Assembly (NCBI GenBank): GCA_944340905.1
Contig: CALVLT010000021.1
Span: 1 to 38,703 of the forward strand
Direction of reading: 5' to 3'
From: an uncultured Clostridia bacterium
GTDB taxonomy: Bacteria; Bacillota; Clostridia; Christensenellales; Borkfalkiaceae
Length of the DNA stretch: 38,703 nt
This document shows, piece by piece, positions 10,964-30,926 of this stretch; position 1 is the first letter of the stretch; each line of letters begins with the position of its first letter. The notes below the pieces were generated by a model. The model had not been told where the DNA came from, searched no databases, and was given only the letters and a program-made list of their open reading frames with translations. Both the position numbers and the translations under genes were made by a program.

Positions 10964-13900
10964 CTATGATAACGGAGAACTCGCACCGAAGAGGAAATTA
11001 TGGTCGTCAAACGCGGAGAACTGTATTATGCCGATCTCTCCCCCGTCGTGGGGAGCGAACAGGGCGGCGTGCGCCCCGTGCTCATCGTGCAGAACGACAC
11101 GGGGAACAAGTATTCGCCCACCATCATTGCGGCGGCGGTGACGAGCAAGATCGGAAAAGCCCGCCTGCCCACGCACATCGAGCTGCCCCACGCCTTCGGG
11201 CTTGCCAAGGACAGCGTCATCCTGCTCGAGCAGATCAGAACGCTGGATAAGCGGCGGCTGCTCTCGCGCATCGGCGCGCTGCCGCCCGCCACCATGTCCC
11301 GCGTGGACCGCGCCATTCTCATCAGCCTCGGCTTTGAGGACGGCGCGCGGCACTTTGTCTGAACGCCGCCTGTTTCCCCGAACCGCCTGTCCTCCCGAAA
11401 ACTCCTTTGCCCTCCTCTGAAAGAACACCTCTTGAAAATTGCGCGCGGACGCACCTGCGTCCGCGCGCATTGCATGTAGAAAAATGAATTGCCAGTAGTT
11501 GCCCTCCGTCACCGCGCCCTCCCCCTCAAACGGGTCGCTCTCGCTGTAATAATAAATTGTTGCAGAAGTCAGATACGAATTATTATAACCTATGCTGATG
11601 CTCTCCCACTCTTCCTCCGTACCATGGTAGTAGACATTTTCCAACGAATAACAATCATGGAACGCAGAATCACCAATGTATGTCACACCGCTGCCGATCG
11701 TCACACTTGTAAGGTTGCTGCAAGCATTGAACGCTCCACCACCGATGCTCGTGACACTGTCCGGTATTGCGATGCTCGTCAGTCCACTGCATTCATAAAA
11801 TGCATATAAATTGATTTCATACTCCATTACCTGCGTGCCGTTATACGCAGTGAATGATTGCGGGAGCGTGAGTTGCGTTTCCGTACCGAAATATCCCACA
11901 AGGTACCCCGTGCTGCCGTCGTAAAGGAATCGGTAGCCATCCTCCGTGTCAGACAACCATGATCCCCCTTCCTGCGTATAGATATTTTTTGCAAATAACG
12001 CCACATTTCCATTATCATAACTTCCTGCCGTGAGAGACAGATCACTCTTGTTGAATACTTCCACAAGCCGCATGCACCCACTGAACGCATTCATTTCAAT
12101 GCTCTTTACGCTGCTGCCGATCGTCACGCTTGCAAGGTTTTTACAAGCATTGAACGCATATTCCCCAATGTTTGTCACGCTGTTCGGAATAATAATTTCT
12201 GTCAGCCCATTGCACCCAAAAAACGCAGAATCCCCGATACTTTGTATGCCGTTCCCAAATTTTATTTTTGAAAGACTGTTGCATCCAAAGAAGACAGAAT
12301 CCCCTATGTTCTGTACGCCATTACCTAAAGTAACACTGGTTAACCCAAAACAATTATAAAATGCACCTGTATCAATGACTTTTACAGAATCTGGGATAAT
12401 TATCTCTTCCAGTTCGAGGCAATTTAAAAAAGCGAACCTTGAGATGCTCTGTACACCGCTACCGATCGTTACGCTTTTTAAAGCGGTGCATTCCTCAAAA
12501 GCTCTCTCTCCAATATTTTTAACAGAATTAGGAATAACAATTTCCTTTAACGTTGTACAAAACGAAAAGGCATTTCCTCCAATTCCAGCCGTATCGGAAC
12601 GCAACGTAACGCTTTCCAAACTGTCGATAGAGGAATCGTATCCCACAACCCATCGATCAACATAGTATACCCCATCTTGTAGCAGAGTGAGTGTACTGCA
12701 ATTAGAGAACGCCCTTTCGCCAATATACATGACGGAATCGGGAATAATAATTTCTTTAAGCCCTGTACAATCCGCGAATGCCCAATCTCCGATGCTTGTA
12801 ACAGAATTTGGAATGCTGATGCTTGTTATTTCGCGGCAAGCGCTAAATGCATAATCACCGATACTTGTGACGGTATCCGGAAGTACAATGTCTCCCGTCA
12901 AGGTCTCCCCATCGACATAAACTGTACCGTACGAACGCATTAATGTTTCAAGACCACTTATCCCGCACCAACTCGCAACACTTCCTTGGTAATATATATC
13001 AGATAACGATGTACACATGGAAAATGCACTATTGCCAATCGTCTGTATGCTAATCGGGAGTGTTACTGTCTCCAGCAAAATACATTTCTGAAATGCGTAA
13101 TCCCCTATTGCATGACATGCACTGCCTTCTTCAAAAGCTACGCTCTTCAAGTTAGCATTTGAACAAAATGCATTGTCGCGTATTTCTTGAACATGAGAAG
13201 GTATAATAAGGTTGGTTAAAAGCTGACCGCCTATGTACAAATTCTCTGCCAACCAAATTCCATAACTTGTATTATATTCAACATTTAGGTTGAGCCATCC
13301 GCTGATATCACCGTCATAGTAGTAATTTTTAATCTTGGTCTCAATCGGAAAAGCAGCAACACCGATATTTGTCAAACTTGCAGGAATCTGAATATAATTC
13401 ATAGAAATAGCGGATGCAAAAGCCAACGATCCTATGCTACGTAGCTGGCTGTTCTCTCCATACTGTACGCTTTGAATGTTTGAACATTCATAAAATGCAT
13501 AATCACCGATCACCTCTACGCTATCCGGCATCTTTATTATACCCCCTAAAGAGTCACAACCCAAAAAGGCTCTGTTCTCTACTGAAGATAACTGACTGTC
13601 TGTCTCAAACCTTAATCCGCTTATGGAAACACACTCTTCAAAAGCAGATACGCCTATTTTTTCTACGCTATAGGGAATATTTAAAATACCAGATAAAGCT
13701 GTACACCCGCAAAAGGCTTTCTCGCCAATTTCTGCGATACCGCTCCCCAATGTTAAAGTATATAAATTAACACAATTTGCAAATGTATAGGGTGCAATTA
13801 CTTCCAAATTATTATTGTTTTCAAATAAGACGGCAGTAAGCTTTGTACAACCATAAAAAGCATACTGTTCGATTTCCTGAACAGTCGTAGGAATATACAA

Positions 13901-16108
13901 TTCGCCCTGTAAATTAACGCAATCAGCAAATGCATACTCTTTGATTGATTGAAGATTGCTGTTATTCTCAAACACTACGCTCGTGATGTCAAGCCCCTTG
14001 AATGCATATGACTCAATAATGGCAACCTCTTTCGGTATAACAATTTCCCCTTTTAATTCAATACCATTTACATAAATCGGGACATTGGCTTCAACTAACT
14101 CCTGTAGCCCTTGAATCGCACACCAACCATTGATATTCCCTGAATATTCTATTTTAGATAGATTTGAACTTATGGGAAGACATCCCGCCTCTATTAAATT
14201 TATGCTTGCCGGTATTTTTATTTCTGCTATGCCGTTATTCCCATCTGGCCTGTATTGCCTGTAAAAAGCTTTCGTTGTTAAAACGGTTCCACCCAAAATA
14301 TCAATTCTTCTTAAATTGTACATATAGTTTGGCGTCTCAGATTCAAAAATATATCCTAAATAATTATTGATCGGATCATCTTTGGTTGCCCCCACAAACG
14401 GAATCGTTATACTATTTAGTTTAGTACTGTCAGACAATATTCCATACCCCATCCTCACCACTGTATCGGGAAACACTATCTCGGTCAAACCACTACAATT
14501 TTGGAAAGCATAATCGCAAACATACTGTAAATTGGTATCTGCCGAAAAAACGATTGTTTCTACATCTGTACAGGAAGAAAAAGCATATTCGGCTATTCCT
14601 TTTATAGGGAAATTGATATTAATCGATGTTGAATCATTATCACAGTCAAGTATCCAACCGCTCAAATGCATAATGCCATTCGTAAATTGCATATCTGCCG
14701 AGGCTATACCCGTATTCTGCCCGATATAAGTTAAACTATCGGGCAAATTAACCTCTTTCAGTGGCTCGTACCATGCTGCGAATGCCTGACTCCCTATTCT
14801 TGTGATTCCATCGGGAAGCTTGATTTCCTGAACATAAGAACATTTAAAAGCCTCGTCTCCAATTTCTTTGACCTGATAGCTTTTCCCATCTATCCATACT
14901 TCTTTCGGTACAGAAACAATCTCACTTGATCCGATATATCTGGAAACAACCACCCCTTGACTGGTCAAAACAAAGTGCATATCTTCTGTTGATACGAAAT
15001 TCTTATCTGTCACCTCGTAATAAGTAGTGTATTGAGCATCCAGCCATTGAACATCCGCTGCTTGATTTTCACAATATATAATCAGCGGGTTATTTGTTCC
15101 AAAGCCGTCATACCCCTCAAAAGCAAGGTTCCCCGCCTTTGTAATGGGATATTCCTTTTTGTTTTTCGTAATTGAATGAGGGATATAAACGGTTTTTTCC
15201 GACGTATTACACCTTGTCAAAATTGCATGGTCATCCTGAATAAGATATTCCAATCCTTCCTCTTGAACCAGTGCATCAAAAACGCAACCCCAATATATTT
15301 CAGTATTTGTGGAATAATGCCAATAATCATCCTTATGCCACAAAGGTGCATCGTCTCCAACATCTTGTTCGGCTAAACTATAAAATACGATATCGCCGCA
15401 ATATGAGAACGCATCGGCGCCCATTGTTGATAGATTTTTTGGTAAAATAACGCTTTTTAAAAAGGAGCACCTAAAAAATGCCTCATAACCAATCGTTTCC
15501 AAGTTGCTATTTTCGCCAAAAATTACAGAAAATATCGTAGAATCGGAAAATGCTCCATCATCAATTATTTTTATAGTATCAGGAAAAGTCACATCAAAAA
15601 TGGTTTTATCTGAAAACGCATTGCTTCCTATGCGAGTTACAGGCAAACCATTATATATTTCCGGTATAGTTATATTTCTTTCATTGAAATTCCCTTGCAT
15701 CCCGACACAGGAATATGATTGTTTATCTTCGTTCAATTGAAAATAGAATCCGGAAGTGTTTGATAAAAGAGTAATTTCAGTACGAGCATCACATCTAGAA
15801 CAATGGTATGATTTTTCTCCATCGTTTTGTTCTGTAGGAATAATATCTATTGTCCACTCCGTCTCCCACAAATGACCAGCTGGAATAACGGTGTCATAAA
15901 TCTCCAATTGACCTTCTGAATCAGAAAAGACCCTGTCACATAAAGAACAATGCCAATACTCTACATTGCCATCAGTAGTACAAGTCTCAGGTACAGCTTG
16001 TACATATTCTAATGAATGGTTATGGCCTGTTGTACACGAAGTGATGCCGAAGACGCAGAAAAGCGCCATCAGAACCGTGATCAATGCGATCGCCAATTTG
16101 TGTTTCAT
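10964..16108 (-). CDS. BspA-like leucine-rich-repeat lipoprotein
   Basis: Large cell-surface protein, 1,714 aa as an open frame. Residues 1-25 are a lipoprotein signal ending ITSC (C25). Residues about 28-112 hold two Cys-pair units (HCSLC, HCSRC) common ahead of such repeats. From about 130 to 1,520 run dozens of 23-residue repeats of the type [21 protein letters not shown], as in Treponema/Bacteroides BspA adhesins. The true C-terminus is probably near residue 1,539, after EGNYWQF (DNA about 11490), because similar proteins end soon after a GNYW motif; the remaining 175 residues translate a terminator stem (11441-11468) and the antisense of mazF, and look nothing like the family. Stop loss or a small deletion is inferred. 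Ribosome site AGGAGG is 7 nt upstream. The middle and N-terminal part of the gene is clearly AT-richer than its neighbours. Function: adhesion or binding, inferred. Confidence 0.88.
11000..11362 (+). CDS. mazF: MazF/PemK-family endoribonuclease toxin
   Basis: 120-aa sequence-specific mRNA interferase of the EndoA/MazF type. It starts [20 protein letters not shown], has [12 protein letters not shown] (R25) and [10 protein letters not shown] (T48); Arg25 and Thr48 match the catalytic pair known in Bacillus subtilis MazF. Ribosome site GAGG is 5 nt upstream of the ATG. No MazE-like antitoxin gene is found in the 158 bp to the cation-efflux gene or downstream, so it stands alone in the window. 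The opposite strand is fully covered by the extended reading frame of the leucine-rich-repeat gene. A weak -10 (TATGAT, 10965-10970) is visible without a good -35. Confidence 0.95.
11441..11468 (-). terminator. Terminator between mazF and the repeat lipoprotein gene
   Basis: GCGCGCGGACGCA, 2-nt loop, TGCGTCCGCGCGC: a perfect 13-bp stem. On the minus strand it is followed by AATTTTC, so it would mainly end the lipoprotein transcript; on the plus strand it lies 79 nt past the mazF stop but without a U-run. The lipoprotein reading frame passes straight through it. Confidence 0.6.
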
Positions 16109-18045: not shown

Positions 18046-18074
18046 TTGACGGGAGGACGGTTTTGTTGTATAAT
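18046..18074 (+). promoter_or_regulatory. Promoter of the plus-strand radical-SAM gene
   Basis: TTGACG (18046-18051), 17-nt spacer, TATAAT (18069-18074). Transcription would start near 18081; GAGG at 18090-18093 is the ribosome site for the ATG at 18098. Confidence 0.8.
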
Positions 18075-18097: not shown

Positions 18098-19117
18098 ATG
18101 AATTACAAAAACGGGTGGCTGATCCTGAACAGGGGGTGCAATCTGCGCTGCAAATGGTGCTATGCCAAGGGCACGGGCTATCGGGCGGAGGAGCAGATGG
18201 CGCCCGAGAAGGCGCGCGCCGTCATCGACCTGTGCGCCGAACTGCACCTGCGGCATCTGACGCTGATCGGCGGCGAGCCGACGGTGTACCCCCACCTGAC
18301 GGACGTCATCCGCTATGCGGCAGAGCGCGGCCTGCGCTGCGCCTTCGTCTCCAACGGCGTTGCCTACGCCGACGAGGGCTACGTCCGCACCCTGTGCGAC
18401 GCGGGGATGCGGCACTTTTCCATATCCGTGAAGGGAACGGACCGCGAAAGTTTTTACAAAACGACGGGGGCGGACAGATACGACGACGTGCTCAGGGGCA
18501 TTGAAAACTGCCTGAAGGCCGACGAGCGCACCGCCGTCTTTCTGGTGCTGTACGAGGAGAATATAGAGACCTTCCTCGGCTGCGTTGCACGGCTGCGGGA
18601 GATGGGCGTCAGGAAATTCAACTTCTCCTTTCTGTACCATTTCGACGATACTCCGGGTTACAAGGGCTATCTGGAGCGGTACAGGCCGCGCGCCGTCGTG
18701 CGCAGGTTCATGCAGCTCTACGGCGAACTGGACAGGCTGACGGAGGGCGGAATACGCATCACGCCCACCCTTCCGCCCTGCGCATGGGACGCGGATTTTC
18801 TGAACATGCTGGCGCAAAAAGGGCAGCTTGCGGGCGGATGTCAGCTGAAGGAACGCAGCGGGCTGGTCATTGACTACGACGGCAGCCTGCTGCCCTGCAA
18901 TGCCATGCAGTCCGTCAGACTCGGCAGGTTCGGCGTGGATTTTTGCGATGCGGAAAGCCTGCTTGCGTACAGCAAAACGCCATACGTGCACGAAATTTAT
19001 GACCGCCTGAGCGCACCTCCCGCAAAACAATGCAGCGACTGCACACACGAGAGAACGTGCGACGCTTGCGCCTGTCAGTGGACGAATTACACATTGGAAC
19101 AGCTTTTGGGCACTTAG
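18098..19117 (+). CDS. Radical-SAM/SPASM protein, putative peptide-modifying enzyme
   Basis: 339-aa radical S-adenosylmethionine enzyme. The [4Fe-4S] cluster motif CNLRCKWC (C14, C18, C21) is followed by the SAM-binding GGEPT at 58-62. The C-terminal part has the SPASM pattern for auxiliary clusters: C248-x13-G-x4-C267, then CSDCTHERTCDACAC (C312, C315, C321, C324, C326). Unlike the neighbour at 19252-20562 it has no N-terminal extension before the SAM core. It converges on that maturase and its peptide gene and shares their bidirectional terminator. SPASM proteins mostly modify peptides or help mature enzymes, so joint action on the 28-aa peptide is possible, but it is unproven; it might instead act on an unrelated substrate. 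The gene is high in GC like the housekeeping genes. Confidence 0.88.
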   Translation: MNYKNGWLILNRGCNLRCKWCYAKGTGYRAEEQMAPEKARAVIDLCAELHLRHLTLIGGEPTVYPHLTDVIRYAAERGLRCAFVSNGVAYADEGYVRTLCDAGMRHFSISVKGTDRESFYKTTGADRYDDVLRGIENCLKADERTAVFLVLYEENIETFLGCVARLREMGVRKFNFSFLYHFDDTPGYKGYLERYRPRAVVRRFMQLYGELDRLTEGGIRITPTLPPCAWDADFLNMLAQKGQLAGGCQLKERSGLVIDYDGSLLPCNAMQSVRLGRFGVDFCDAESLLAYSKTPYVHEIYDRLSAPPAKQCSDCTHERTCDACACQWTNYTLEQLLGT

Positions 19118-19127
19118 ATTCCCGCAC

Positions 19128-19166
19128 AAAAAGGGGGCGCCGAGAACTTCTCGGCGCCCCCTTTTT
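19128..19166. terminator. Bidirectional terminator between the two radical-SAM transcripts
   Basis: A-run, GGGGGCGCCGAGA, 3-nt loop, TCTCGGCGCCCCC, T-run. The stem is perfect over 13 bp and flanked by A5 and T5. It ends the radical-SAM gene on the plus strand and, 3 bp past the peptide stop, the maturase-peptide operon on the minus strand. Confidence 0.92.
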
Positions 19167-19168
19167 GT

Positions 19169-19255
19169 TCAGTCGATCCCCCAGTCGCAATCCTGGTTGC
19201 AGCAAGAAGTGACATCCGCCTCATATGACACGGAAGATTCCTTCAGAACGATCAT
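19169..19255 (-). CDS. Small Cys-rich RiPP precursor peptide (28 aa)
   Basis: Twenty-eight codons from the ATG at 19253-19255 to the TGA at 19169-19171. The first 15 residues are mixed and end in YEADV; the last 13 read TSCCNQDCDWGID with C18, C19 and C23, D22, D24 and D28. The ATG overlaps the maturase stop (ATGA, 4 nt), an AGGAGG sits 8 nt upstream inside the maturase 3' end, and a strong terminator begins right after the stop. These three signs together mark a translated gene in an operon with a radical-SAM/SPASM enzyme, the standard setting for sactipeptide or ranthipeptide precursors. C18 and D22 are spaced CX3D, the spacing used for Cys-Asp thioether bonds in PapA-type peptides; the real crosslink is not predictable. 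No leader cleavage motif such as GG is seen, and no peptidase or exporter gene is adjacent. I do not recognise the peptide family. Confidence 0.75.
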   Translation of the reverse strand: MIVLKESSVSYEADVTSCCNQDCDWGID

Positions 19256-20562
19256 TGCGCGCACCTCCTTTTTTCAATATATTTTCTGACCGACTTTTTC
19301 AGATGTTCCACCGTATACTCGCACTCGATCGCCTGGTCAAGCTCCAGGCGGCGGTGCGGGCAACCGCCCATGCAAACGGGCAGAATGGTACACGTTGCGC
19401 ATTTTTCGGGCAGCGGCTGATCCATGAACCGGCGGAAATAATCGTTGTAATTGAGTCCGGAGAAGATGCTCCCCACCGCGTGCGCCTCCACGCCGAAATC
19501 ATGCTCGCACTTATACAGTTCGCCGTGCACGCCCACGCAGAACACGTTCATACAGTGCTGTCCGCAGAACGTCTTTTTGGGTTCGCGCACCTTGGGGGGC
19601 TTGCCGATGAATTCCTCGAAATCGGACAAGATCTCCTCATATTCGGGCGTTGTGCAGTAATCATTGGTATCCTTGCAGAAGTCATAGCTGCGCAGACGCT
19701 CCAGGGAAAACATGACGTTGTTGTGGAAACGGCCGTCCGCCTTCAGGCTGCGCACAAATTCCTTGATGTCCCCGAGGTTACTGTTATCCACGTTCAGGCG
19801 CAGATTGATGGTGACTTTCAGCCCGTTGCGCGCGATATATTCGGACAGATCGAGGATATTCCCCACCGCCCTGCGGTATGCCTCGGGCGTCGTCCCCTTT
19901 CTGGCACAATATTCACGCTCCGTGCCGTCAAACGTGACCTGCGCAAAGTTCGTGTTGTGTTCGCGGAAGAGAAAGTCAAACTTTTCTTTCGACAAAAAGT
20001 AGCCGTTCGTGATGATGCCCGCGCGGAACGCAACGTTCATGCGGCTGCAGAGCGCATGCAGCTTTGCCTGCAGCGGGACGATCGCCTGTCCGTAGGCAAG
20101 GAGCGGCTCGCCGCCGAACCAGGTGATGCGCACGTTCTTTACATGCGGCGCGGCGGAGAGCTTTTTTTCGACCGCCGCAACGATGCCGTCCACCACTTCG
20201 GAGGACATGACGTCCTTTTGCCCCTTCGCCCCATGTTCAAAGCAATAGGGACAGTGATAGTTGCACGCCATCGTCGGCGCGATGACCAGCCCGATGGAGT
20301 CCTGCCCCGTGGCATACTGCCGCATCTTGGCGTTGTAAACGATCTCTTCGTATTCGTCGAGGTCGGCGCTGACCACGATGCCCTGTTTGCGCAGCCCGTC
20401 AAGGAGGGCCGCGACACGTGCGTCAGCATAATCCCCCCTGCCGAGCAGCTCCCATACGGGCCGTTCCAGCTCCACCACGCTGCCGCGCTTGGTGTTCCAT
20501 ACCGTCATGGTATCCCGCGTCTCGTCCGCAACAATGTTGTAATAGGAAAGTTTGTACTGCAT
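19252..20562 (-). CDS. Radical-SAM/SPASM peptide maturase
   Basis: 436-aa enzyme expected to install thioether or other crosslinks in a ribosomal peptide. Residues 1-85 are an N-terminal region (VWELLGRGDYADARVAALLD) placed where peptide-recognition (RRE-like) domains occur. The radical-SAM core starts LVIAPTMACNYHCPYCFE with cluster cysteines C100, C104 and C107, and GGEP at 150-153. The SPASM domain is canonical: C342-x4-G-x4-C352, then CATCTILPVCMGGC (C388, C391, C397, C401) and C414; extra C333 and C337 precede it. The start at 20562 (MQYKLSYYN) is chosen for its GGAGG site and promoter; the frame is open 25 codons further up but without a ribosome site. Its last codons carry the ribosome site of the downstream 28-aa peptide gene, its probable substrate. 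Confidence 0.92.
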   Translation of the reverse strand: MQYKLSYYNIVADETRDTMTVWNTKRGSVVELERPVWELLGRGDYADARVAALLDGLRKQGIVVSADLDEYEEIVYNAKMRQYATGQDSIGLVIAPTMACNYHCPYCFEHGAKGQKDVMSSEVVDGIVAAVEKKLSAAPHVKNVRITWFGGEPLLAYGQAIVPLQAKLHALCSRMNVAFRAGIITNGYFLSKEKFDFLFREHNTNFAQVTFDGTEREYCARKGTTPEAYRRAVGNILDLSEYIARNGLKVTINLRLNVDNSNLGDIKEFVRSLKADGRFHNNVMFSLERLRSYDFCKDTNDYCTTPEYEEILSDFEEFIGKPPKVREPKKTFCGQHCMNVFCVGVHGELYKCEHDFGVEAHAVGSIFSGLNYNDYFRRFMDQPLPEKCATCTILPVCMGGCPHRRLELDQAIECEYTVEHLKKSVRKYIEKRRCAQ

Positions 20563-20748: not shown

Positions 20749-23700
20749 TTATTCTTCGCTGCCCTCGCCGGCGTCGGGTGCGGGCGTTTCGGCAGCCGTG
20801 CCGTCGGAAGGAGCCTCTGCGGCAGCGCTCTCCGCCTGTGCGGCGGCCTGCTGTGCCTGACGCTCCAGCCTGCGCTGGCGGCGCAGCTCTTTGCGGCGTT
20901 CCTTGGCAGCCTCGATGTCCTTTTCGATCTGGTCAACGGACAGGTCCACCATCGTGTAAGCCGTCTCCAGGTCGTCCTCGTCGCGGATGACAAGCTCGGT
21001 GGCACGAACCTTGAGTTTCGCCTCCGACTTGGCGTTCCTGCGGAAGGTCTTGAGCATCTCGTTCTCGAGCAGGAAGAGCGCCACCGGCATATCGCGCCGC
21101 ACGGTGAGCTTGACGACCTGCTTGCCCTCGCGCTTGACGACCACGCCGCCGCTCTGTTTGACTTCGACCGCGCCCTCCTTGGCGAGCGCATACTCCCTGA
21201 CTTTATTGAACAGGTCGCGCTGTTCGTCCGTCAGGTCCATATACGCCTCGCTGAACGAGCGCACGTTCGCCGCAATGACGATGTGCTCCTTGTCGCCGTC
21301 CTCTTCCGCCGCAAGCTCTTCCACGGGCGCCGCAGCAGGCGCTGCAGGCTCTTCGGCAGGTGCGGCAGGCTCTTCTGCGACCTCTTCGGGCTGTGCCGCG
21401 GCGGCGGGAGCGCTCTCCTCGGGCTGCGTCTCGGGCTGTGCCTGGGTTTGTGCAGCCACTTCCCTGCGCCCCTTCAGCAGCATTACGATGCACGCAACCA
21501 CGATGAGTACGAGTACGACGGCGAGCAGCACGTACACGCCCGTCAGGGACGGCGTATTCTGTGCGGACGCCTCTACAGAGGCGACCTGCGCACGGAACGT
21601 AGAGACCGCCGTGGTCACATCGGAGACGGTGGTCGCCGCGTCGATGGCGGCGAGCGCCTCGTTGTAGTACCTGAGCACAAGGTTGGCGTTGTCCTCGCTG
21701 AACGCCTGCGTGAGTCTGGCGTAGATATCGCCGTCCGTCGTCTCGGGGGTGTACGCTGCACGCGCCACGAGGATGCCCGCCTGTGCGCTGTCAGCGCCGA
21801 GCAGGCTGTCGAGATAATCGTTGAGCCAGTCGCGGAGATCCGTCATGGCGTTGTCCTTCGCCTCTTCGACGGCGGTGGATGCACTCACGCTGTTCGCGAT
21901 GCTGTCCACCGTGGTCTGGAGGGCGGCAATGTCGGCAAGAATATCCGTCAGATCGCCTGTGATGGCAGTGACGTCGTCGCCGTCGGCGAGCGATGCAATG
22001 CTCTGGCGGATGCTTTCAATGTCCGCGATCGCTTCCGTGATGGAGGAGGACAGTCCGCCGGAGGCATCCTGCAGTGCGCCCGTCAGGTCCCCAATTTCGG
22101 CAGCCGCGTTCGTCAGCGTGGTGTTCATCGAACCGAGCAGGCCGATCGAGCTGCTCCAGCTTTCGAGAAGTGTTTTCACTTCCCCGATCGCAGTATTCGC
22201 ATTGCTCACTGCGCTCAGAATGGAATCGAGCGTTGTTCCGTTTGTTCCGATCACACTGTCGATCTTTTCGAGGATCGAATCGATGCGATCGTCGATGCCG
22301 CTTGTACCGAGCAGCGCCTCTTTGACGGCGGTGAGGTCGTTCTGCAGGCTGTCGATCGTGCCGTTTTCCTCGAACGCCGCAATGACGTTTGCAAGGCTGT
22401 CGCTCAGATCGGAGATGGACATGCCGCCTTCGCCGTTCGCCGCGCCCATGATCTCGTTCTTGGCTTGCGTGATGGCATCGAAGATGTCCGAATCGCCCTC
22501 GAAATATCCGAGCAGGGTATCCAGCGTTCCGTTGCCTGCGAACGTGCCGTCTGCCTCGTTATACGCGCCGAGCAGCTCTTCCGCAAACGCATTGAGCAAT
22601 GTGTTGATCGTATCGAGCGAGCCTTGGATCGTTTTCGTCAGATACTCGTTAAGCTCGGCAAGCGAAGCCGCATCGGCATCCGCCGCAACGCCCGTGATCT
22701 GTTCGCGCGCCGCCTCGATGGTGTTCAGAATGCTGTCGATCGCGCCCGTATTATCGGTGAACAGACCGCTGTTGAGTTCGCCGACCGCCTTTTCGATCTC
22801 GTCAAGCTGCGTACTCTGCGCCGCGATCTGCGCGCGATAGCTGCGGATATCCGCGATCTCCGCAAGCGCGTTTTCAAGCAGGCTTTCCAATTCCGCCTTG
22901 TTGCGCGCCGCATAGATGGCATTGTAGGTGGCGGTAGGAACGACGACTGCCTCCTGTGCGGGCTGTCCGTCCGCCTCCTCCTTGGCCTCGGCTGCCGCGG
23001 CGATCTCACCCGCCGCCGCCGCCTTCATTCCGTCGAACTTGGCAAGCAGGCCGTCGAGCGCATTGATCGCCGCAAGGCGCGCCTGCGCCACGCTGTATTC
23101 GCTCGTCGCCTCCGTAATGTCGGCATACGCCGCAACCAGCGCCGCCGCATTGGCCTTGAGCAACGCCTCGCCCTCCTGCGCTGCAAGCTGTTCGACATAC
23201 GCCATCGTCCAGCCGTAAGCGGCAAGCGCGCCGCGCACATCCGCCTGCGCATTCGCCTGTGCGGTGAGGAGCGCCGCAAGGTCGTCCGAGACAGATTCGA
23301 TCACTTCATAGTAGCCCGTAGCGCCGTAGAACGCGCCCTCGTAGCCCTCGGCGAACAATCCCTCTGCGGGCAACTCGGCATACTGACCACCCGAAACAAA
23401 GCCGGTGATGTTTCTTGCCTCGACGGGAGCTTTGAATTTGCCACCCACGATGGAGATCGTAACCCCCTCGGAAGGAGTAACATCCTCTTTCCCGACGGTG
23501 TCAATTTCAAGGAAGGCTTTTCCGTCCGCGCCGGTCGCGTTGATCGTACCGCCGTTAACCGTCACGTCGATCGGACGCTCCGTGGTATGCTGCGAAACCG
23601 CAATGGCAACGCCGCCCACCGTGGTGCCGTCCGGGTTAGGAACGGGCTCCGTATATACGCCCGTCGCCGTGACTGTCGTTCCTTCATTGACGGTGAGTTT

Positions 23701-26700
23701 GCCCGCGCGGATCTCGATGCCCGTTGCGCCCTTGATCTCGCCGCCCGTGATCGTCGTTTCGCCGCTGCCCGGCAGATACATCGCCGTACCGGTGGCTTTG
23801 GGTGCGGAGACATTGGTATCGGTAAGACTGATCACGTTATTGTAGAATGTTCCGTTGGTAGCAATACCGTAATAGACGGTGCCGGAAATGGAGCTGTCCG
23901 TTGCCGTCAGACTCGTCTTGTTCGCAGATTCCTCCGCCGTACCGAACATTGCAACGCCGGCTACGCCGCCCGTAACGGTGGCGTTCGTAAGCACCGCATT
24001 GCCGCCGTCCGCGGTCGGAGTTCCGCCGTTGTAGTCGCCCAGCCTGATCGCCTGCCCGCCATTGGCATAATCCACGACAACGTCCTCGATCGTGAGCGTT
24101 GCGTTCTTCGTCACCACAAGACCGTGGTCCGCGCCGTCGCCGGTATACACGATGGCACCGTTATCTTCGCTGCTCTCGATCGTCACGTCTACGGTGATAT
24201 TGGCAGCCGTCCCTTCAGCACGGACCGTGTGTCCCGCAAGGTCGATCGTTACATTCTTATCGATCGTGAGCGCTTCGGTGAGATTCACATCGCCGAGGAG
24301 CACGACCGTATCGCCGTTCTGCGCAGCCTCGAGCGCGTTGACAAGGGTAGCATATCGATAGGAGACGCCGCTTGCGTCAATGATCATTGCCTGCGGCTCG
24401 CTGTTTTCAACAAGCGTATAGGCGTCCGTTTTCGAATCGTACTGCAACGCATACAGCGGGTTATCCGTGCCATCTCTGTCGAGGTAGTCCTCGGGCACGG
24501 GTTCACCGAACGTGCCGCCCGATACGGCGACCTCGCCAATATCTGTAGCGTAGCTGTTCTGCATAATGATCGTGCCGCCCGTGAAAGTACCGTCCGTAAT
24601 GGTCAGTTTACCCTGATCCATGGTATCGTTCAGATAACCATTGACGACGACGGCAAATGCCCCTTCGTTGATCTCAAACGTACCGCCGTTGATCTCAGCC
24701 ACGTTCCAGTTCATCACCGCCGCCTGCGAGATATTGCTGAACGTGCCGCCCGTGATCGTCAGTTGACCGTAATCATCGTTCTTGACGGTATTCAGGCCGC
24801 CCGAATATTCGCCGCCCTTGATGGTCATGACGGAAGGCTTCCGCTGCTTGTTATCATTGCCATCCTGCCAACCGTTCTCGATCAGGCTGGAATATCCGCC
24901 CGGCTGCTGAATAATGCCGTTGAGCGTTGCCGTGCCGTGGTTGAGCAGCACATAAAAGCTGTTGCCGCCGTTATTGGAGCTGCTGTTGCCCTTCTCGTTA
25001 CTTCTTGCAAGTCTGCCGCCGTCAAGGGTGAACGTGCCGCCCACTTCATTGTAGACCGCAGCCTTCCCATGCGAGAGCGCATCCACGTACACATTCTTTC
25101 CAACGGTCAACGTACCCGTGTTATAAATGGTATCAAAGTCGCTGGCAATCATGTTTGCGCTCGAACCATCGCCCGCATTGTCAACGATTACAAGCGTACC
25201 GTTGTTGGTAATGGTGTGATCGTCAACGTTCGTGATCGTACACCCGTTCAGGTCGAGAGTGACATTCTGTCCCCCGTCGATCGTTACGTCCTCGGTGACG
25301 TTCTGCAGCAATGTGATGGTCGCCGCATTCTCACCCGCCGCATCAATCGCCGCCTGCAGGGTTTCATACGCCGTATCGTTGCAGACAGCCGCAGCGTTTA
25401 CTTCTACCGTGTAGTTCCCCTCGCTGCCTTCGAGCGCATACCCCGCCGCAAGATAGCTGGCGTCAAACGTCTGCTGATAGCTGCCACCCGAAATGAACTT
25501 CGTGATATTCTTTGCCTCGACTTCGCCGTTGAACGTACCGCCCGTGATGGAAACAACGGGAGCGCCGTATGCAAATTCATGCGTTCCTTCGACCCCATCG
25601 TAGCTATCGTCACGGTTGGGATTATGATTGCCCTCATAGAACGCCCTGCCGTTCTCGGCCGTGAACGTGCCGCCGTCGATGGTGACAGACAGGGAAGTAT
25701 TTGCAATGTCATACTTGGACACCGCGATCGCCGCGCCGCCAAGCACGGTGTTACCGCCGACAGAGGGCGTTGCATTGGTCGAGAAGTCGCCCGTAGCGGT
25801 AACGGTCGTGTCGCCGGAGATGACCAGCGTCCCGTTTCTGATCTCGATGCCCGTCGTTCCGGTAATAGCGGCATTTGCAATGGTCGTGGTGCAGGTCGCC
25901 TGCGGCAGATACATTGCAACAGTTTTGTCGGAAGTAACGCTGCCGCCGAGAATATCGATGTTCAGCGTGCCAAACTCATCCCCATTGCCCATGATCGTAG
26001 CGCTGCTCCCCGACGACAGTGTGGCATAAGAAGTCAGGGAAACAGTATTGCCAACTTCGGCAAATACGAACACTGCGTTATGCCTTACATAATCTCCCGA
26101 TTCGATCGTCAAAGTGGATTCCAGAATCAGCTCGCCATCAGCTCCGACATCAGCAGTTCCGGAGTGCAGCTGAATCGCAGTCTTACGAACATCGATCGTA
26201 CCATTCCGGAATATGATCGTTGCATTCCCTACGCTGATGTCAAACAAGTTGTTCGGACATGAAGTACCGGTCGTCGAAATCGTATGACCGCCTAAATCAA
26301 ACGTAAGCGATTTGTTCTCAATCTCAATGGTTTTATTGACCGAATAACTGATGTCATCCAAAAGCGTGATCGTTGCGCCGTCATCTGCCATTGCAACAGC
26401 GGTCGAAAAGACAGTAAACCGATAGATGGTGCCGTCCGACATTTCCACCTGCACAGTTGCCGCCGCCGTTTTGATGATGCTTACCATGTTTTCGGTGGCA
26501 CTCAGCGTAAATTCATGCGTTTCGGGCACATACTGTGCAATATTCTGCCCGTCTGCATTCGTTAAAGCCTTTGCATACGAACCACCCTGAAGGCTGATTT
26601 CGCCGCCGTTTTCCGTAAACGTGACACTTTCGTCAAACTTGCCGCGCTCAAACCTAGCGGTGCTGCCGCCATTGGCAATAAATTGTGTTCCATTAAAAAC

Positions 26701-29700
26701 CGGATCCGCAACTCCGGCGGCGACCATCGTCCCATCGTTTTCGATCTTGCCGCCTTGGTACGTACCGCTGGCAATGGTCAGCACGCCGGAGTTTTCAACA
26801 TTCACATAGCGTGTTCCCGCGTTGAAATATACGATGCCACTGTTTGTGATGGTGACAAAATTGTCCTCATCTCCAACCTGTCCGGACGAATTGAAAATTT
26901 CCAGCCTTCCGCCCTTCTCTACAACAATGGAGCCAAGCAGTCTTACAGATTTGCTCCGAGAATAGAATTTGATGTTTTTTCCTTTTCCGATCGTAACTGT
27001 TTGCCCTTCATTGAGCTTAACCGGCTCACTGCCGGAAACCCTGAAATCAATGTCTGTATCGTACTCGTCGTTGAGTTCGTCCTCAGCGACGGGGTCAATG
27101 CTATCAATTGCCGCCTGTAAAGTGTTATAGCCCCTCTTGCCGACAAAGAAGTACACACCCGCTCCATTGGCATCGTTTTGCGTTCCCACACCATAGCCAT
27201 TGCCCGAGGTATAGAGATATCGGCTGCTCCCAAGATAATCCTCGGAGAATGCCGTATCAAACGTGCCGCCGGTGATAAATCTCGTAACATTCTCGCTGTA
27301 AATATCGCCCGTGAACGTGCCGCCGGTAATGGAAGTTTTGATTTGATCGGTTGCAGTCTGCGTCTCCTCAAAATCCACTTCATAGAAGGCATATCCGTTG
27401 CTTGCCGCATCGCCCACGGCACGATATGTCCCCTCAGAAATATTCACATTGACGGGCAAATTGGTGGAATGCTGCGAAATGACGATTGCTGCACCAATTA
27501 CGGTAGTACCGGAACGATAATTGCCTGGTACGGTATAGAAAGAACGATTTGCCTCAATTTTAACATTTTCGTCATTGATATTCAGCGTGCCCGAACGCAC
27601 TTCAATGCCTGCGCCGCCGGTCAAAGTGGTATTGCCGGTAAGCGTCAGAATGCCATTCTGCGGCTGGAAAATCGATGCATAATAACTGGTGAGCGTGCTG
27701 TCTGTCACGGTAATGTCCGTACCGTGCGCCTCACCGTGTCCTGCGATAGCATAATAACTTGACGAAGTGAGTGCAACTTTGATAGTCGTCCCTTCAACCT
27801 TTACAACGGTATATGTATCGTCAACCTCTTCCGGTACTGCATTGCCAGATGCATACATACCAAACACAGCAATTCCCTGCCATGCGGTATCGATCGTGCT
27901 GTTCTGTACAACCAGACTGCTGACGCCGCCTTCCTGTGAGCGGACTTCCACAGCATTGCCTGCGCCCGTCAGATAAATGATAGAACCGTCCGTAATCTCC
28001 ATATTGGCGCCGTTGCTGATTCCAACGCCCGCAGAAAGACTTCCGACTGCGCCCTTTACAGTAACAGAAACGCCGCTGAGCGTGACGCTGCCCGCACCGG
28101 TCGCCTGAATACCGCGCGCACCGTCAGCATTTGCCGTAACAGAAATTCCGTTAATTGTTACGCCCTCTTCCCCGGATATGCTGAGCTGCACAAGGATGCC
28201 GTTGCCGTATTCTGCAACAATTGCAGAACCGTTGCTGCCCGTGAGCATTGCACCGTCTGCTCTGATTTCAACAGCATACGTACCCGCTGATCCGCTATAG
28301 GTAATCGTATTCCCGTTCAGATCGAGCGTGAGAGCACGGTCGATCACGATGGATTCGGAAAGCTTAAGGTCTGCGCCAAGGCGGATGACGGAATAGGTGC
28401 CCGCAAGGGCATCGGCAATGCCTGCCGCCTTGTAAACGGTGACGACTGTTGCGGCCTCCGCGCTCCCGCTGTTTGCAACCGTGTAGACGGCATCCGCGCC
28501 CGCATCGATCGCCGCCTGTTCGGATTCATAGACGGTGAATTCGCCGGTGCCGTTGTAGCCGTCCGCGTCATACCCCACCGCGGCGTTCTCGTCGATGAAA
28601 TAGCCGCCCATATTGTCGTCGCCCTGTGCGGGATTGCGCCCGATAAAGGTACCGCCCGTAATAGTGACGTCCTCATAGGAGCCACTGTTGCTGACGTTCA
28701 CCGTAAGCGGCGCGCCGCCGCCGCGGGCATAGGTATCCGCTTTGTTTTCAAGCTTGCCGCCCGAGATTTCGATCCCGCCGCCATTGTAGGAAAATACGCA
28801 GGATTCCCATTCGGTATCGACGACGATGGCGCCGCTTATCATTTCAAAGGTGCCGCCCCACGCGCCGATGGGAACGGTATACTGCACGCCGTTTTGCGAT
28901 GCGTCGATTGCGCCATCCGTACCGCTGTCTACGAGGGTGAGATGGTAGCCCTCATAAATATAGATTGCGCATCTCGTATGGTCCGCATCGTCCCCGAATT
29001 CGCGAAGGGTGAGCGTGTTCCCGTTCAAATCGAAGGTGATCTCGATGGTGTTGGCGGGAACAGAAGAGCCATCGCTGCTACCAAGCCCGATCCGCTCTGC
29101 AAGCGTATAATTATCCGCGATCAGCGTGACGGTTCCGCCGCCTGCCTTCATCGCCGCGTCAAACGCCGCCTCGAGGGTGGTGAAATAGGTGATCGTACCG
29201 TCTGTTTCGATAGACGCAACGGCACCCGCGGGTTCGTTCAAATCTGCCGTAGAGGAAACAGAAACCTGTGCGCTGCCTTCCGTCAGCACATCGTTGTTGA
29301 ACAAGCCGTTTTCAGTGGTTTCAAGTGTGACGTCATTGACGGTAACATCTGCATTTGCAACCGCGCGGACGCCGCTGATCACTGCGTCTTCAGCGGTGCC
29401 GACCACTTTGAACGTGCCGCCGTCGATCGTGACCGTGCCGCTGCCTTCCGTGCCGTCTTTATCAGAAGAGGCATAGACGATGGCGCAATTGCCCCCGTCA
29501 TTGCGGACAGGATTTTCGAGCGTAAGCGTGCCGCCGCCCGTAATGGTCGCATTGGAGCCATAGGTCAGCACAACGTTCTGTGTATAATTGACAAGCTCGC
29601 CGCCTTCGATCGAGAGCGTACCGCTGTTGATTTTGACTGTGTTAGCACCGCCTGTCAGACTACCGCTCCTGATGGTGACAGAGGGATCGCCGCTGATGGT

Positions 29701-30825
29701 GGCGCTCTCATTGCTTACACTTATGACAAGCGAGGAGAACCCGCCCACGGCTTTTCCGTCTCCGTCCACAGTGCGGGTGGTGACGGTTGCCCCGTCAACA
29801 GTGAGAATACCGAAATTCTCGATCGTATAATAGCTGTTTTCGTTGCCTGAATAAGGCTCATATGTACCGGCCTCCTGACTTCTCGTGAACGTGCCGCCGT
29901 TGAGAATCGCCGTGCCGTAGTTTGTGAGCGCTGTACGAGCATGCGTCACGTTGTCCACCGTACCGTTGCCGACGATCGTCAGCGTGCCGTAGTTGGTGAT
30001 GGTGTGACCCGCCCTGTTCGTCAGCGTCTTGCCGTTCAGGTCAAGGGTAATATTCTGCCCTTCTGCAACGACAATATCTTCTTTTACGTTGCCGGACAGC
30101 GTGACCGTCTCGCCGTTATCCGCCGCGTTGACGGCGTCCTGCAGCGTGGCATATGTAACCGTCCCTACCGGACCGTCCGCCACAGATACGCGCTTCGCAT
30201 TGGTCACATCGAACGTGACATTGTTCAAATCCAGGCCGCCTGACACCAAAATCGCCGACGACGTATTGGCGGATGACCCATTCGCATTTGTGAAATCGAT
30301 ACGCACGTCTTCCAAGGTAAGCGTCGAAGAACCGTCTTCCCTCGTTCCTACCTGTATGAAATTTTCGGAAGACTTACCGGAAAGTGTACCATTACGAATG
30401 GTGACATCCACACCTGTCGATTGGTAGTAAACGATCGCACTTGATATGTAATCTGTAACAACGCGCAGAGTCTTCCCGTTCAAATCGAGTTCAAGATCAC
30501 GCGTTACGTACAAGGCATACCCGGGCATGCCCGCCGTTGTCATAGCAGTCTTCAAAGCATCATCGCTAATGAAATCAAATGTAATATCTTCGCCAAGTTT
30601 TATGATGCTGACATTAGAATTTGTGAAAGCAGACAACATGTCTTGCCACGAAGAGACCGTGGCGGTATTGCCTTCCACCGTCATGTCGTACGTTTCAGCC
30701 GTTTCCGTCTCGTCTGCCGCGCGGACGTCCCTTACGGGAACATTCATGCACAGAAATGCCGCAAGCACCAGCGCAAACAGCGCCGCAAACAATGCCGCAA
30801 TGCCCCTTACCTTTGCCTTTTTCAT
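20749..30825 (-). CDS. Giant beta-helix surface protein with membrane anchor and cytoplasmic tail
   Basis: About 3,358 aa. The start at 30825 (MKKAKVRGIAALFAALF) has GGAGG 5 nt upstream; residues 1-36 are a Sec signal ending VRA-AD. Residues about 40-2,508 are right-handed beta-helix repeats (DLNGKTLT, VTIDGGTF, GGTFTG patterns). A large module containing GIEIRNGTL, then AIAVSQH, then GTFTA and AFYE recurs near residues 1,070, 1,660 and 2,370. Residues about 2,510-3,090 are Ala/Glu/Leu-rich helices, a likely stalk. One membrane span (about 3,094-3,116, VYVLLAVVLVLIVVACIVML) is followed by a 240-residue cytoplasmic part: a Pro/Glu/Ala-rich linker, a compact domain (YMDLTDEQRDLFNKVREYAL, VVKLTVRRDMPVALFLLENE) and a basic coiled coil with an acidic end. 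No LPXTG motif or S-layer domains are seen. The role is probably adhesion or glycan binding, perhaps with inward signalling or cytoskeletal linkage; the tail domain is not one I recognise. Confidence 0.9.
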   Translation of the reverse strand: MKKAKVRGIAALFAALFALVLAAFLCMNVPVRDVRAADETETAETYDMTVEGNTATVSSWQDMLSAFTNSNVSIIKLGEDITFDFISDDALKTAMTTAGMPGYALYVTRDLELDLNGKTLRVVTDYISSAIVYYQSTGVDVTIRNGTLSGKSSENFIQVGTREDGSSTLTLEDVRIDFTNANGSSANTSSAILVSGGLDLNNVTFDVTNAKRVSVADGPVGTVTYATLQDAVNAADNGETVTLSGNVKEDIVVAEGQNITLDLNGKTLTNRAGHTITNYGTLTIVGNGTVDNVTHARTALTNYGTAILNGGTFTRSQEAGTYEPYSGNENSYYTIENFGILTVDGATVTTRTVDGDGKAVGGFSSLVISVSNESATISGDPSVTIRSGSLTGGANTVKINSGTLSIEGGELVNYTQNVVLTYGSNATITGGGTLTLENPVRNDGGNCAIVYASSDKDGTEGSGTVTIDGGTFKVVGTAEDAVISGVRAVANADVTVNDVTLETTENGLFNNDVLTEGSAQVSVSSTADLNEPAGAVASIETDGTITYFTTLEAAFDAAMKAGGGTVTLIADNYTLAERIGLGSSDGSSVPANTIEITFDLNGNTLTLREFGDDADHTRCAIYIYEGYHLTLVDSGTDGAIDASQNGVQYTVPIGAWGGTFEMISGAIVVDTEWESCVFSYNGGGIEISGGKLENKADTYARGGGAPLTVNVSNSGSYEDVTITGGTFIGRNPAQGDDNMGGYFIDENAAVGYDADGYNGTGEFTVYESEQAAIDAGADAVYTVANSGSAEAATVVTVYKAAGIADALAGTYSVIRLGADLKLSESIVIDRALTLDLNGNTITYSGSAGTYAVEIRADGAMLTGSNGSAIVAEYGNGILVQLSISGEEGVTINGISVTANADGARGIQATGAGSVTLSGVSVTVKGAVGSLSAGVGISNGANMEITDGSIIYLTGAGNAVEVRSQEGGVSSLVVQNSTIDTAWQGIAVFGMYASGNAVPEEVDDTYTVVKVEGTTIKVALTSSSYYAIAGHGEAHGTDITVTDSTLTSYYASIFQPQNGILTLTGNTTLTGGAGIEVRSGTLNINDENVKIEANRSFYTVPGNYRSGTTVIGAAIVISQHSTNLPVNVNISEGTYRAVGDAASNGYAFYEVDFEETQTATDQIKTSITGGTFTGDIYSENVTRFITGGTFDTAFSEDYLGSSRYLYTSGNGYGVGTQNDANGAGVYFFVGKRGYNTLQAAIDSIDPVAEDELNDEYDTDIDFRVSGSEPVKLNEGQTVTIGKGKNIKFYSRSKSVRLLGSIVVEKGGRLEIFNSSGQVGDEDNFVTITNSGIVYFNAGTRYVNVENSGVLTIASGTYQGGKIENDGTMVAAGVADPVFNGTQFIANGGSTARFERGKFDESVTFTENGGEISLQGGSYAKALTNADGQNIAQYVPETHEFTLSATENMVSIIKTAAATVQVEMSDGTIYRFTVFSTAVAMADDGATITLLDDISYSVNKTIEIENKSLTFDLGGHTISTTGTSCPNNLFDISVGNATIIFRNGTIDVRKTAIQLHSGTADVGADGELILESTLTIESGDYVRHNAVFVFAEVGNTVSLTSYATLSSGSSATIMGNGDEFGTLNIDILGGSVTSDKTVAMYLPQATCTTTIANAAITGTTGIEIRNGTLVISGDTTVTATGDFSTNATPSVGGNTVLGGAAIAVSKYDIANTSLSVTIDGGTFTAENGRAFYEGNHNPNRDDSYDGVEGTHEFAYGAPVVSITGGTFNGEVEAKNITKFISGGSYQQTFDASYLAAGYALEGSEGNYTVEVNAAAVCNDTAYETLQAAIDAAGENAATITLLQNVTEDVTIDGGQNVTLDLNGCTITNVDDHTITNNGTLVIVDNAGDGSSANMIASDFDTIYNTGTLTVGKNVYVDALSHGKAAVYNEVGGTFTLDGGRLARSNEKGNSSSNNGGNSFYVLLNHGTATLNGIIQQPGGYSSLIENGWQDGNDNKQRKPSVMTIKGGEYSGGLNTVKNDDYGQLTITGGTFSNISQAAVMNWNVAEINGGTFEINEGAFAVVVNGYLNDTMDQGKLTITDGTFTGGTIIMQNSYATDIGEVAVSGGTFGEPVPEDYLDRDGTDNPLYALQYDSKTDAYTLVENSEPQAMIIDASGVSYRYATLVNALEAAQNGDTVVLLGDVNLTEALTIDKNVTIDLAGHTVRAEGTAANITVDVTIESSEDNGAIVYTGDGADHGLVVTKNATLTIEDVVVDYANGGQAIRLGDYNGGTPTADGGNAVLTNATVTGGVAGVAMFGTAEESANKTSLTATDSSISGTVYYGIATNGTFYNNVISLTDTNVSAPKATGTAMYLPGSGETTITGGEIKGATGIEIRAGKLTVNEGTTVTATGVYTEPVPNPDGTTVGGVAIAVSQHTTERPIDVTVNGGTINATGADGKAFLEIDTVGKEDVTPSEGVTISIVGGKFKAPVEARNITGFVSGGQYAELPAEGLFAEGYEGAFYGATGYYEVIESVSDDLAALLTAQANAQADVRGALAAYGWTMAYVEQLAAQEGEALLKANAAALVAAYADITEATSEYSVAQARLAAINALDGLLAKFDGMKAAAAGEIAAAAEAKEEADGQPAQEAVVVPTATYNAIYAARNKAELESLLENALAEIADIRSYRAQIAAQSTQLDEIEKAVGELNSGLFTDNTGAIDSILNTIEAAREQITGVAADADAASLAELNEYLTKTIQGSLDTINTLLNAFAEELLGAYNEADGTFAGNGTLDTLLGYFEGDSDIFDAITQAKNEIMGAANGEGGMSISDLSDSLANVIAAFEENGTIDSLQNDLTAVKEALLGTSGIDDRIDSILEKIDSVIGTNGTTLDSILSAVSNANTAIGEVKTLLESWSSSIGLLGSMNTTLTNAAAEIGDLTGALQDASGGLSSSITEAIADIESIRQSIASLADGDDVTAITGDLTDILADIAALQTTVDSIANSVSASTAVEEAKDNAMTDLRDWLNDYLDSLLGADSAQAGILVARAAYTPETTDGDIYARLTQAFSEDNANLVLRYYNEALAAIDAATTVSDVTTAVSTFRAQVASVEASAQNTPSLTGVYVLLAVVLVLIVVACIVMLLKGRREVAAQTQAQPETQPEESAPAAAAQPEEVAEEPAAPAEEPAAPAAAPVEELAAEEDGDKEHIVIAANVRSFSEAYMDLTDEQRDLFNKVREYALAKEGAVEVKQSGGVVVKREGKQVVKLTVRRDMPVALFLLENEMLKTFRRNAKSEAKLKVRATELVIRDEDDLETAYTMVDLSVDQIEKDIEAAKERRKELRRQRRLERQAQQAAAQAESAAAEAPSDGTAAETPAPDAGEGSEE

Positions 30826-30926
30826 ACGATCCTCCTGCTTTTTTCTGAGCCTTTTTTCTGCTGTCGTGCGCTCATGTTTGCGCACCCGTGAAAATATCAA
30901 TCATTTCACGCTATTTTCACAGATAC

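Follow-up and report, generated by a model that had tools for sequence, protein, structure and literature searches.

Freyrasin and thermocellin are each produced by a radical SAM/SPASM maturase, PapB and CteB respectively, in combination with a Cys-rich peptide. PapB forms Cys-Asp thioethers and accepts 0-6 residues between the Cys and the Asp (PMC9413430, excerpts), and ranthipeptides are defined by their non-alpha thioethers (PMC11002830, excerpts). Two radical-SAM enzymes serve one RiPP system in thuricin CD (TrnC/TrnD; PMC12093266, excerpts) and in ruminococcin C (RumMC1/RumMC2; PMC8188230, excerpts), both of which are sactipeptides. For the thuricin CD pair, the excerpts of PMC12093266 describe a contact between TrnC and TrnD that is predicted mainly via two RRE domains, and state that TrnD also cleaves SAM.

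The locus described here lies in a window of 38,703 nucleotides, the whole stretch of DNA analysed, from an uncultured Clostridia bacterium. It comprises genes for a 28-aa peptide, a 436-aa maturase and a second, 339-aa radical-SAM enzyme (Table 1). Close relatives of the maturase are encoded at two further loci, L002 in an uncultured Bacilli genome (58% identical) and L003 in an uncultured Eubacteriales genome (55%). The cassette resembles freyrasin and thermocellin in pairing a radical SAM/SPASM maturase with a Cys-rich peptide, and freyrasin in its possible Cys-Asp pairs, but differs from both in having a second radical-SAM enzyme and no Cys-x3-Asp repeat. Its precursor is also much shorter than those of freyrasin and thermocellin. 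Like thuricin CD and ruminococcin C it brings two radical-SAM enzymes together, but here the two differ in length and in best-matching models, and their genes are convergent.

Clo7bot/CtpM (TIGR04334), a family with Cys-rich peptides, is the best NCBIfam match of the window maturase (172 bits), and the three Clo7bot peptides listed share a comparable M-[KR]-[FY]-I leader. In contrast to the cassette, seven precursors are annotated ahead of the maturase at the Clo7bot locus, an ABC transporter lies nearby, and the stretch seen has one radical-SAM enzyme. Four other loci (L005-L008, from genomes G123, G025, G649 and G523) encode maturases 33-37% identical to that of the window, and their peptides have an M-x-[IVL]-[IL] type of leader and many Cys and Asp. 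They are unlike the cassette in their longer precursors (43-65 aa, up to four per locus) with repeated Cys-x2-Asp, in the position of eight of the nine precursors upstream of the maturase, and in the absence of a 339-aa enzyme at E ≤ 1e-10.

Table 1. Positions of the cassette features in the window
Feature	Position	Strand	Basis
Promoter-like TTGACG-17-TATAAT, upstream of second radical SAM gene	18046..18074	+	11/12 matches, consensus scan only
Second radical SAM enzyme, 339 aa; SPASM-like Cys pattern (by eye), no room for N-terminal RRE	18098..19117	+, convergent	same length and place in 3/3 cassettes
Hairpin, 20-bp, two-sided, terminator-like, between convergent genes	19126..19168	.	z-scores; hairpin between genes in L002 and L003 too
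Peptide CDS, 28 aa, MIVLKESSVSYEADVTSCCNQDCDWGID	19169..19255	-	conserved in 3/3 cassettes, purifying selection
Ribosome-binding site AAAGGAGGT, inside maturase 3' end	19263..19271	-	identical nine bases in L002 and L003
Maturase, 436 aa: putative RRE-like N-terminal region, radical SAM core (C100, C104, C107), SPASM C-terminus	19252..20562	-	SPASM domain model above cut-off

The peptide gene and its surroundings

The maturase stop and the peptide start share an ATGA (19252-19255), which confirms the 4-nt overlap described in the initial annotation. The peptide's own AAAGGAGGT, which that annotation had placed inside the maturase gene, is indeed present 7 nt ahead of the ATG (7-8 nt across all three cassettes); sites of this type with an ATG 4-10 nt further on number two in the window, against 0.02 expected. 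The small gene of L002 (6304-6384) overlaps the maturase end by 23 nt, and that of L003 (1653-1736) begins 4 nt past the maturase.

The cassette peptides are 26-28 residues long. The window peptide ends in TSCCNQDCDWGID, and alignment shows that the Cys/Asp/Trp pattern first noticed there is kept as CC-x(1,2)-DCDW-x-[IV]-D-stop in all three peptides (window, L002 and L003), with the C-terminus conserved through the last residue except at two positions. Invariant residues are M1, V3, K5, E6, Y11, C18, C19, D22, C23, D24, W25 and D28. Over all codons of the three peptides pS is 0.85-1.08 and pN is 0.25-0.30, and from codon 16 onward pN is 0.13-0.25; this comparison indicates that synonymous change is near saturation and that the codons are under protein selection. 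The initial annotation had named two findings that would speak against the peptide, namely codons free of protein selection and homologous maturases with no small frame. The first is contradicted by these values, and both close homologues carry the conserved frame (2/2). The frame is kept only in this close maturase group, since the 33-37% identical maturases have other, longer Cys/Asp-rich peptides.

In general RiPP terms, the locus thus shows a small conserved gene tied to a family of enzymes that modify peptides. Sequence comparison gives good support, at the gene level, for a short RiPP precursor in which a C-terminal stretch of some 10-11 residues is conserved; this agrees with the very short precursor proposed earlier, for which a core of about 13 residues was suggested. 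None of the NCBIfam models matches the three cassette peptides at E ≤ 1, so the precursor group is new to NCBIfam, and no Pfam model matches the window peptide. Within open-licence papers, neither the peptide letters nor the nearest family name, 'Clo7bot', were found; the family accession returned, among the matches listed, unrelated uses of 'CCPM' only. Among the matches listed for ranthipeptides and two-enzyme systems, the titles and opening parts of abstracts mention no such cassette.

The hairpin that follows the peptide gene has a perfect 20-bp stem in which A and T tracts flank 13 bp of mostly G+C; its z-scores for the minus and plus strands are -7.7 and -8.6. A 13-bp terminator 3 bp beyond the stop had been proposed; that description of the terminator-like hairpin is approximately correct, although its stem is longer, two-sided and begins immediately after the stop. 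The hairpin of L002 lies near the peptide end, and a second stretch by the end of the other gene shows none (z -0.01), while in L003 a stable hairpin overlaps the end of the second radical-SAM gene. An attenuator or leader-peptide reading of the small frame was rejected, because nothing lies on the same strand beyond the hairpin before the convergent gene. Scanning for promoter-like consensus sequences gave two sites in the region, against 1.2 expected. The cassette is flanked by the citrate synthase gene (gltA; Pfam) and the gene for a 3383-aa protein; with these neighbours, the earlier statement that no protease or exporter is directly adjacent holds for the window.

The two radical-SAM enzymes

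The maturase retains the full SPASM Cys set in the alignment. Among the best 25 of 49 curated models, the SPASM-domain model alone passes its cut-off. The leading models for the window enzyme, Clo7bot (172 bits), CefB (164 bits) and TIGR04463 (162 bits), all fall far below theirs, and the L002 and L003 maturases have the same leading models, likewise far below cut-off. Against the Clo7bot cut-off of 600 bits the three maturases score 172.4, 197.5 and 180.9; for CefB (NF038107, cut-off 600) and TIGR04463 (cut-off 525) the highest scores among the three are 194.7 and 198.6 bits. The models for PapB (NF047865, cut-off 340 bits; scores 81.3, 96.5 and 106.2), SCIFF (TIGR03974, cut-off 425 bits; scores 69.2, 78.1 and 72.1) and QhpD are each matched by all three maturases below cut-off.

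The best fold matches of the maturase are 5why/5wgg, which we take to be CteB, and SuiB (424-460 columns, TM 0.41-0.52, rmsd ~9-13). The predicted structures are of low quality (mean pLDDT 57.1 and 58.7) and were used for the order of elements only; the N-terminus follows a strand-strand-strand-helix-helix order in a low-confidence model. Given the quality of these models, an RRE-like N-terminal region in the maturase is suggested rather than proven.

The second enzyme is exactly 339 aa long in all three cassettes, and the L002 and L003 copies are 44-46% identical to that of the window. All three score above the Pfam Radical_SAM cut-off. Invariant Cys comprise C14, C18 and C21 together with C138, C162, C228, C248, C267, C312, C315, C321, C324 and C326; because both the radical-SAM and the further Cys are retained in all three, the enzyme is expected to be catalytically active, with the same peptide as substrate. 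It matches the MoaA, heme-pathway, PapB, WgkB and StsB models in a generic way. The StsB sactipeptide maturase model is matched by all three copies (best E 4.8e-15), and similarity to the PqqE (E 5.6e-13) and mycofactocin (E 2e-14) models is weak. Other named families were rejected, as all models listed are far below cut-off (best 91 of 525 bits).

The second gene, which the initial annotation had not mentioned, is present in all three cassette genomes and in none of the four genomes with 33-37% identical maturases (E ≤ 1e-10, seven genomes searched). The locus is therefore better described as a two-enzyme RiPP cassette than as the 'minimal' RiPP locus of the initial annotation. The second enzyme could also serve something else and merely travel along.

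Relatives, distribution and genomic setting

In a tree of 13 maturases, the three cassette enzymes group together (100/99) and are nested in a supported group (100/99) with those of G123, G025, G649 and G523 and one maturase from a viral contig. L041 was left out of the tree because no frame passed the filter, L009, L035 and L060-L065 were excluded, and the frame used for L039 begins upstream of the gene as annotated. The clade-mate loci encode nine Cys/Asp-rich peptides, selected as having at least 3 Cys, at least 2 Asp, a Cys plus Asp content of at least 15% and a length of no more than 120 aa. The leader likeness is partly by choice in four of them (two each from L005 and L006), because an inner Met was picked by the leader pattern.

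Within these nine peptides Cys-x2-Asp occurs 36 times against 13.5 expected (0/5000 shuffles), and Cys-x3-Asp, the PapB spacing, is depleted (3 against 13.1 expected). This enrichment, together with the rarity of Cys-x3-Asp, argues for Cys-Asp bonds in the maturase clade with a spacing unlike that of PapB. The cassette peptides are not enriched in Cys-x2-Asp (3 against 2.5 expected), and their excess of Cys-x4-Asp (6 against 1.8 expected, 14/5000 shuffles) comes from three homologous, non-independent peptides with eight spacings tried; with so few and such similar peptides, no spacing rule of their own can be shown. The clade-mate precursors with repeated Cys-x2-Asp number two at L005 (1276-2965) and four at L006 (2778-4085). 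Scanning 3 of the 9 clade-mate peptides (2 of the 6 from L005 and L006) against NCBIfam gave no match at E ≤ 1, and the L005 and L006 precursors are possibly an uncharacterised ranthipeptide-like family of their own.

Only three cassettes are known, one of them on a 4.3-kb contig. The genome_contigs scan that yielded L002 and L003 returned 29 stretches matching a pattern, two of which encode relatives, a count that is a lower bound because the scan relies on exact short patterns. In a phylum sample of 398 genomes the second enzyme has a single match, in the window's own genome (E ≤ 1e-60), and in the other carriers' families it is limited to the carrier itself, 1 of 13 and 1 of 23 genomes (E ≤ 1e-50). 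Within the window's family the maturase has matches in 3 of 301 genomes (E ≤ 1e-40), and within its order in 5 of 396 (E ≤ 1e-60); among these, the window's own alone exceeds 37% identity; in the orders of the other carriers its profile matches 1 of 385 and 1 of 279 genomes, the carriers only (E ≤ 1e-80). By these counts the maturase and second enzyme look rare and patchy, travelling together in the three known cases. As the peptide and both radical-SAM genes occur together in three different bacteria, they probably represent a genuine but rare pathway to a cross-linked natural product of very small size.

Integrase sequences occur close to both other cassettes: in L002 a gene of phage type, about 340 bp away from the start of the second enzyme gene, and in L003 a fragment of IS type, about 100 bp ahead of the maturase. 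In the window, the interval between pnp and gltA measures 13.9 kb and contains the cassette and the 3383-aa gene. Among four longer stretches from the same genus, pnp adjoins gltA in G260 (~0.3 kb) and G210 (~1.1 kb), while G1740 and G111 have other genes beside gltA and no pnp there; the spot is thus variable, and an insertion reading rests on two genomes. gltA itself is found in 11 of 31 genomes of the genus, the window's own included (E ≤ 1e-100). Cassette genes are absent beside gltA in nine of the ten others (tblastn, E ≤ 1e-10), and the tenth, L048, has too little flank. The G+C content is 0.60 for the second gene and 0.57 for the maturase and peptide against 0.56 for the whole window, 0.30 for the L002 cassette with flanks of 0.37 and 0.30, and 0.32 against 0.40 in L003. 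The composition of the cassette is accordingly near that of its surroundings, least so in L003.

Two other genes in this part of the window were noted. The 3383-aa protein, encoded at 20749-30900 (minus strand) between pnp and the cassette, is repeat-rich and probably surface-bound (by eye), with one weak Pfam adhesive-domain match; its gene would have no room in the short pnp-gltA gaps of the two relatives. A BspA-type leucine-rich-repeat gene (10964-16108, minus strand), whose G+C content of 0.42 is low beside the window's 0.56, separates gltA from a MazF/PemK gene, two genes that are close neighbours in several relatives. Its true 3' end looks cut, because the open frame continues antisense through the MazF gene.

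A phage or virus origin was rejected, as no cassette turned up when viral_contigs was scanned with the maturase, with both alignments and with two peptide patterns. The maturase relatives found there are at most 31% identical, and 22 loci matched a peptide pattern, none with the leader in the in-frame stretch (by eye). Phage and plasmid records contain distant maturases only (24.6-30.9% identical, E ≤ 1e-20; 6 of 12 matches examined: H1, H2, H5, H7, H10 and H11). A Mesorhizobium plasmid (L039, 1458-4350) carries two adjacent radical-SAM genes, one of them distantly related to the maturase.

Proposed chemistry and alternative readings

Starting from what is directly established, namely the genes, their conservation, their co-occurrence and the selection on the peptide, we favour, at a probability of roughly 0.6, a three-gene RiPP cassette in which the leader is RRE-bound, the maturase forms Cys-Asp thioethers and the 339-aa enzyme acts on the same peptide or with the maturase. 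The leader would consist of the first peptide residues, M-x-V-[IL]-K-E, and would thus be very short; it may bind the RRE-like N-terminal region. In CC-x(1,2)-DCDW-x-[IV]-D, the three invariant Cys would be cross-linked by the maturase to the three invariant Asp; the likeliest bonds are S-to-C-beta thioethers like those of ranthipeptides, each with a mass change of -2 Da, for a total of up to -6 Da. Cys-to-Asp rings are expected because the nearest maturases adjoin Cys-x2-Asp-rich peptides. A one-to-one pairing of C18-D22, C19-D24 and C23-D28 leaves 3, 4 and 4 intervening residues, within the 0-6 that PapB accepts (PMC9413430, excerpts), and the product class leans towards ranthipeptide. The 339-aa enzyme, without an RRE of its own, could be a partner of the maturase or could introduce a further modification close to the invariant Trp and the C-terminal Asp. 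Thioethers would probably form before any second radical step, and cleavage or export, if any, would depend on genes elsewhere.

A more far-reaching version, which we put forward tentatively, is that two dissimilar radical-SAM enzymes act in turn on a core of about 11 residues: the RRE-bearing one would build as many as three interlocked Cys-Asp thioether rings, and the RRE-free one would add a second radical bond at the invariant Trp or the C-terminal Asp. Such a product would represent a new RiPP class and be among the smallest polycyclic ribosomal scaffolds.

The main alternative, possible although we doubt it, is that the two radical-SAM enzymes work jointly on a single kind of bond, as TrnC and TrnD do, with the second enzyme as a helper that adds no chemistry of its own. 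The co-occurrence of both enzymes in all three cassettes fits such a pair. However, the invariance of the radical-SAM and further Cys of the second enzyme suggests an active catalyst (although TrnD, too, cleaves SAM), this enzyme has no RRE region whereas the TrnC-TrnD contact is predicted mainly via two RRE domains, and its gene is convergent and outside the maturase operon. It is unlikely that the product is instead a sactipeptide, with the Cys sulfurs joined to alpha carbons and not to Asp beta carbons. The general architecture is shared with sactipeptide systems and the second enzymes match the StsB model, but the best models of the maturase are Clo7bot, CefB, TIGR04463, FlmE/OhkG, geopeptide and PapB, and three invariant Asp stand alongside the three Cys.

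The peptide could also yield a small cofactor- or signal-like product, its C-terminal CDW-x-[IV]-D being excised once modified, much as in PQQ or mycofactocin biosynthesis, where the precursors are very short as well. The small size of the cassette peptides, their conserved C-terminus and the weak resemblance of the second enzyme to the PqqE and mycofactocin models agree with this. That resemblance is generic, however, because MoaA and heme-pathway models give better matches to the second enzyme; moreover, the cassette has no peptidase or dehydrogenase as a direct neighbour in the window, and to our knowledge three conserved Cys have no part in the PQQ and mycofactocin pathways, which makes such a product improbable. 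We give very little weight to an unmodified metal- or cluster-binding peptide or a non-functional chance frame: CC-x(1,2)-DCD might bind metal, but the linkage to two radical-SAM enzymes in three genomes, the codon selection and the resemblance of the leader to that of Clo7bot precursors all argue against it.

If the favoured three-gene reading is correct, the cassette would provide a compact, fully genetically encoded substrate of 26-28 aa for the question of how two radical-SAM enzymes share one peptide, and would indicate how short a leader and core can be. The Cys-x2-Asp pattern of the clade-mates, in turn, suggests a spacing rule unlike the Cys-x3-Asp of PapB.
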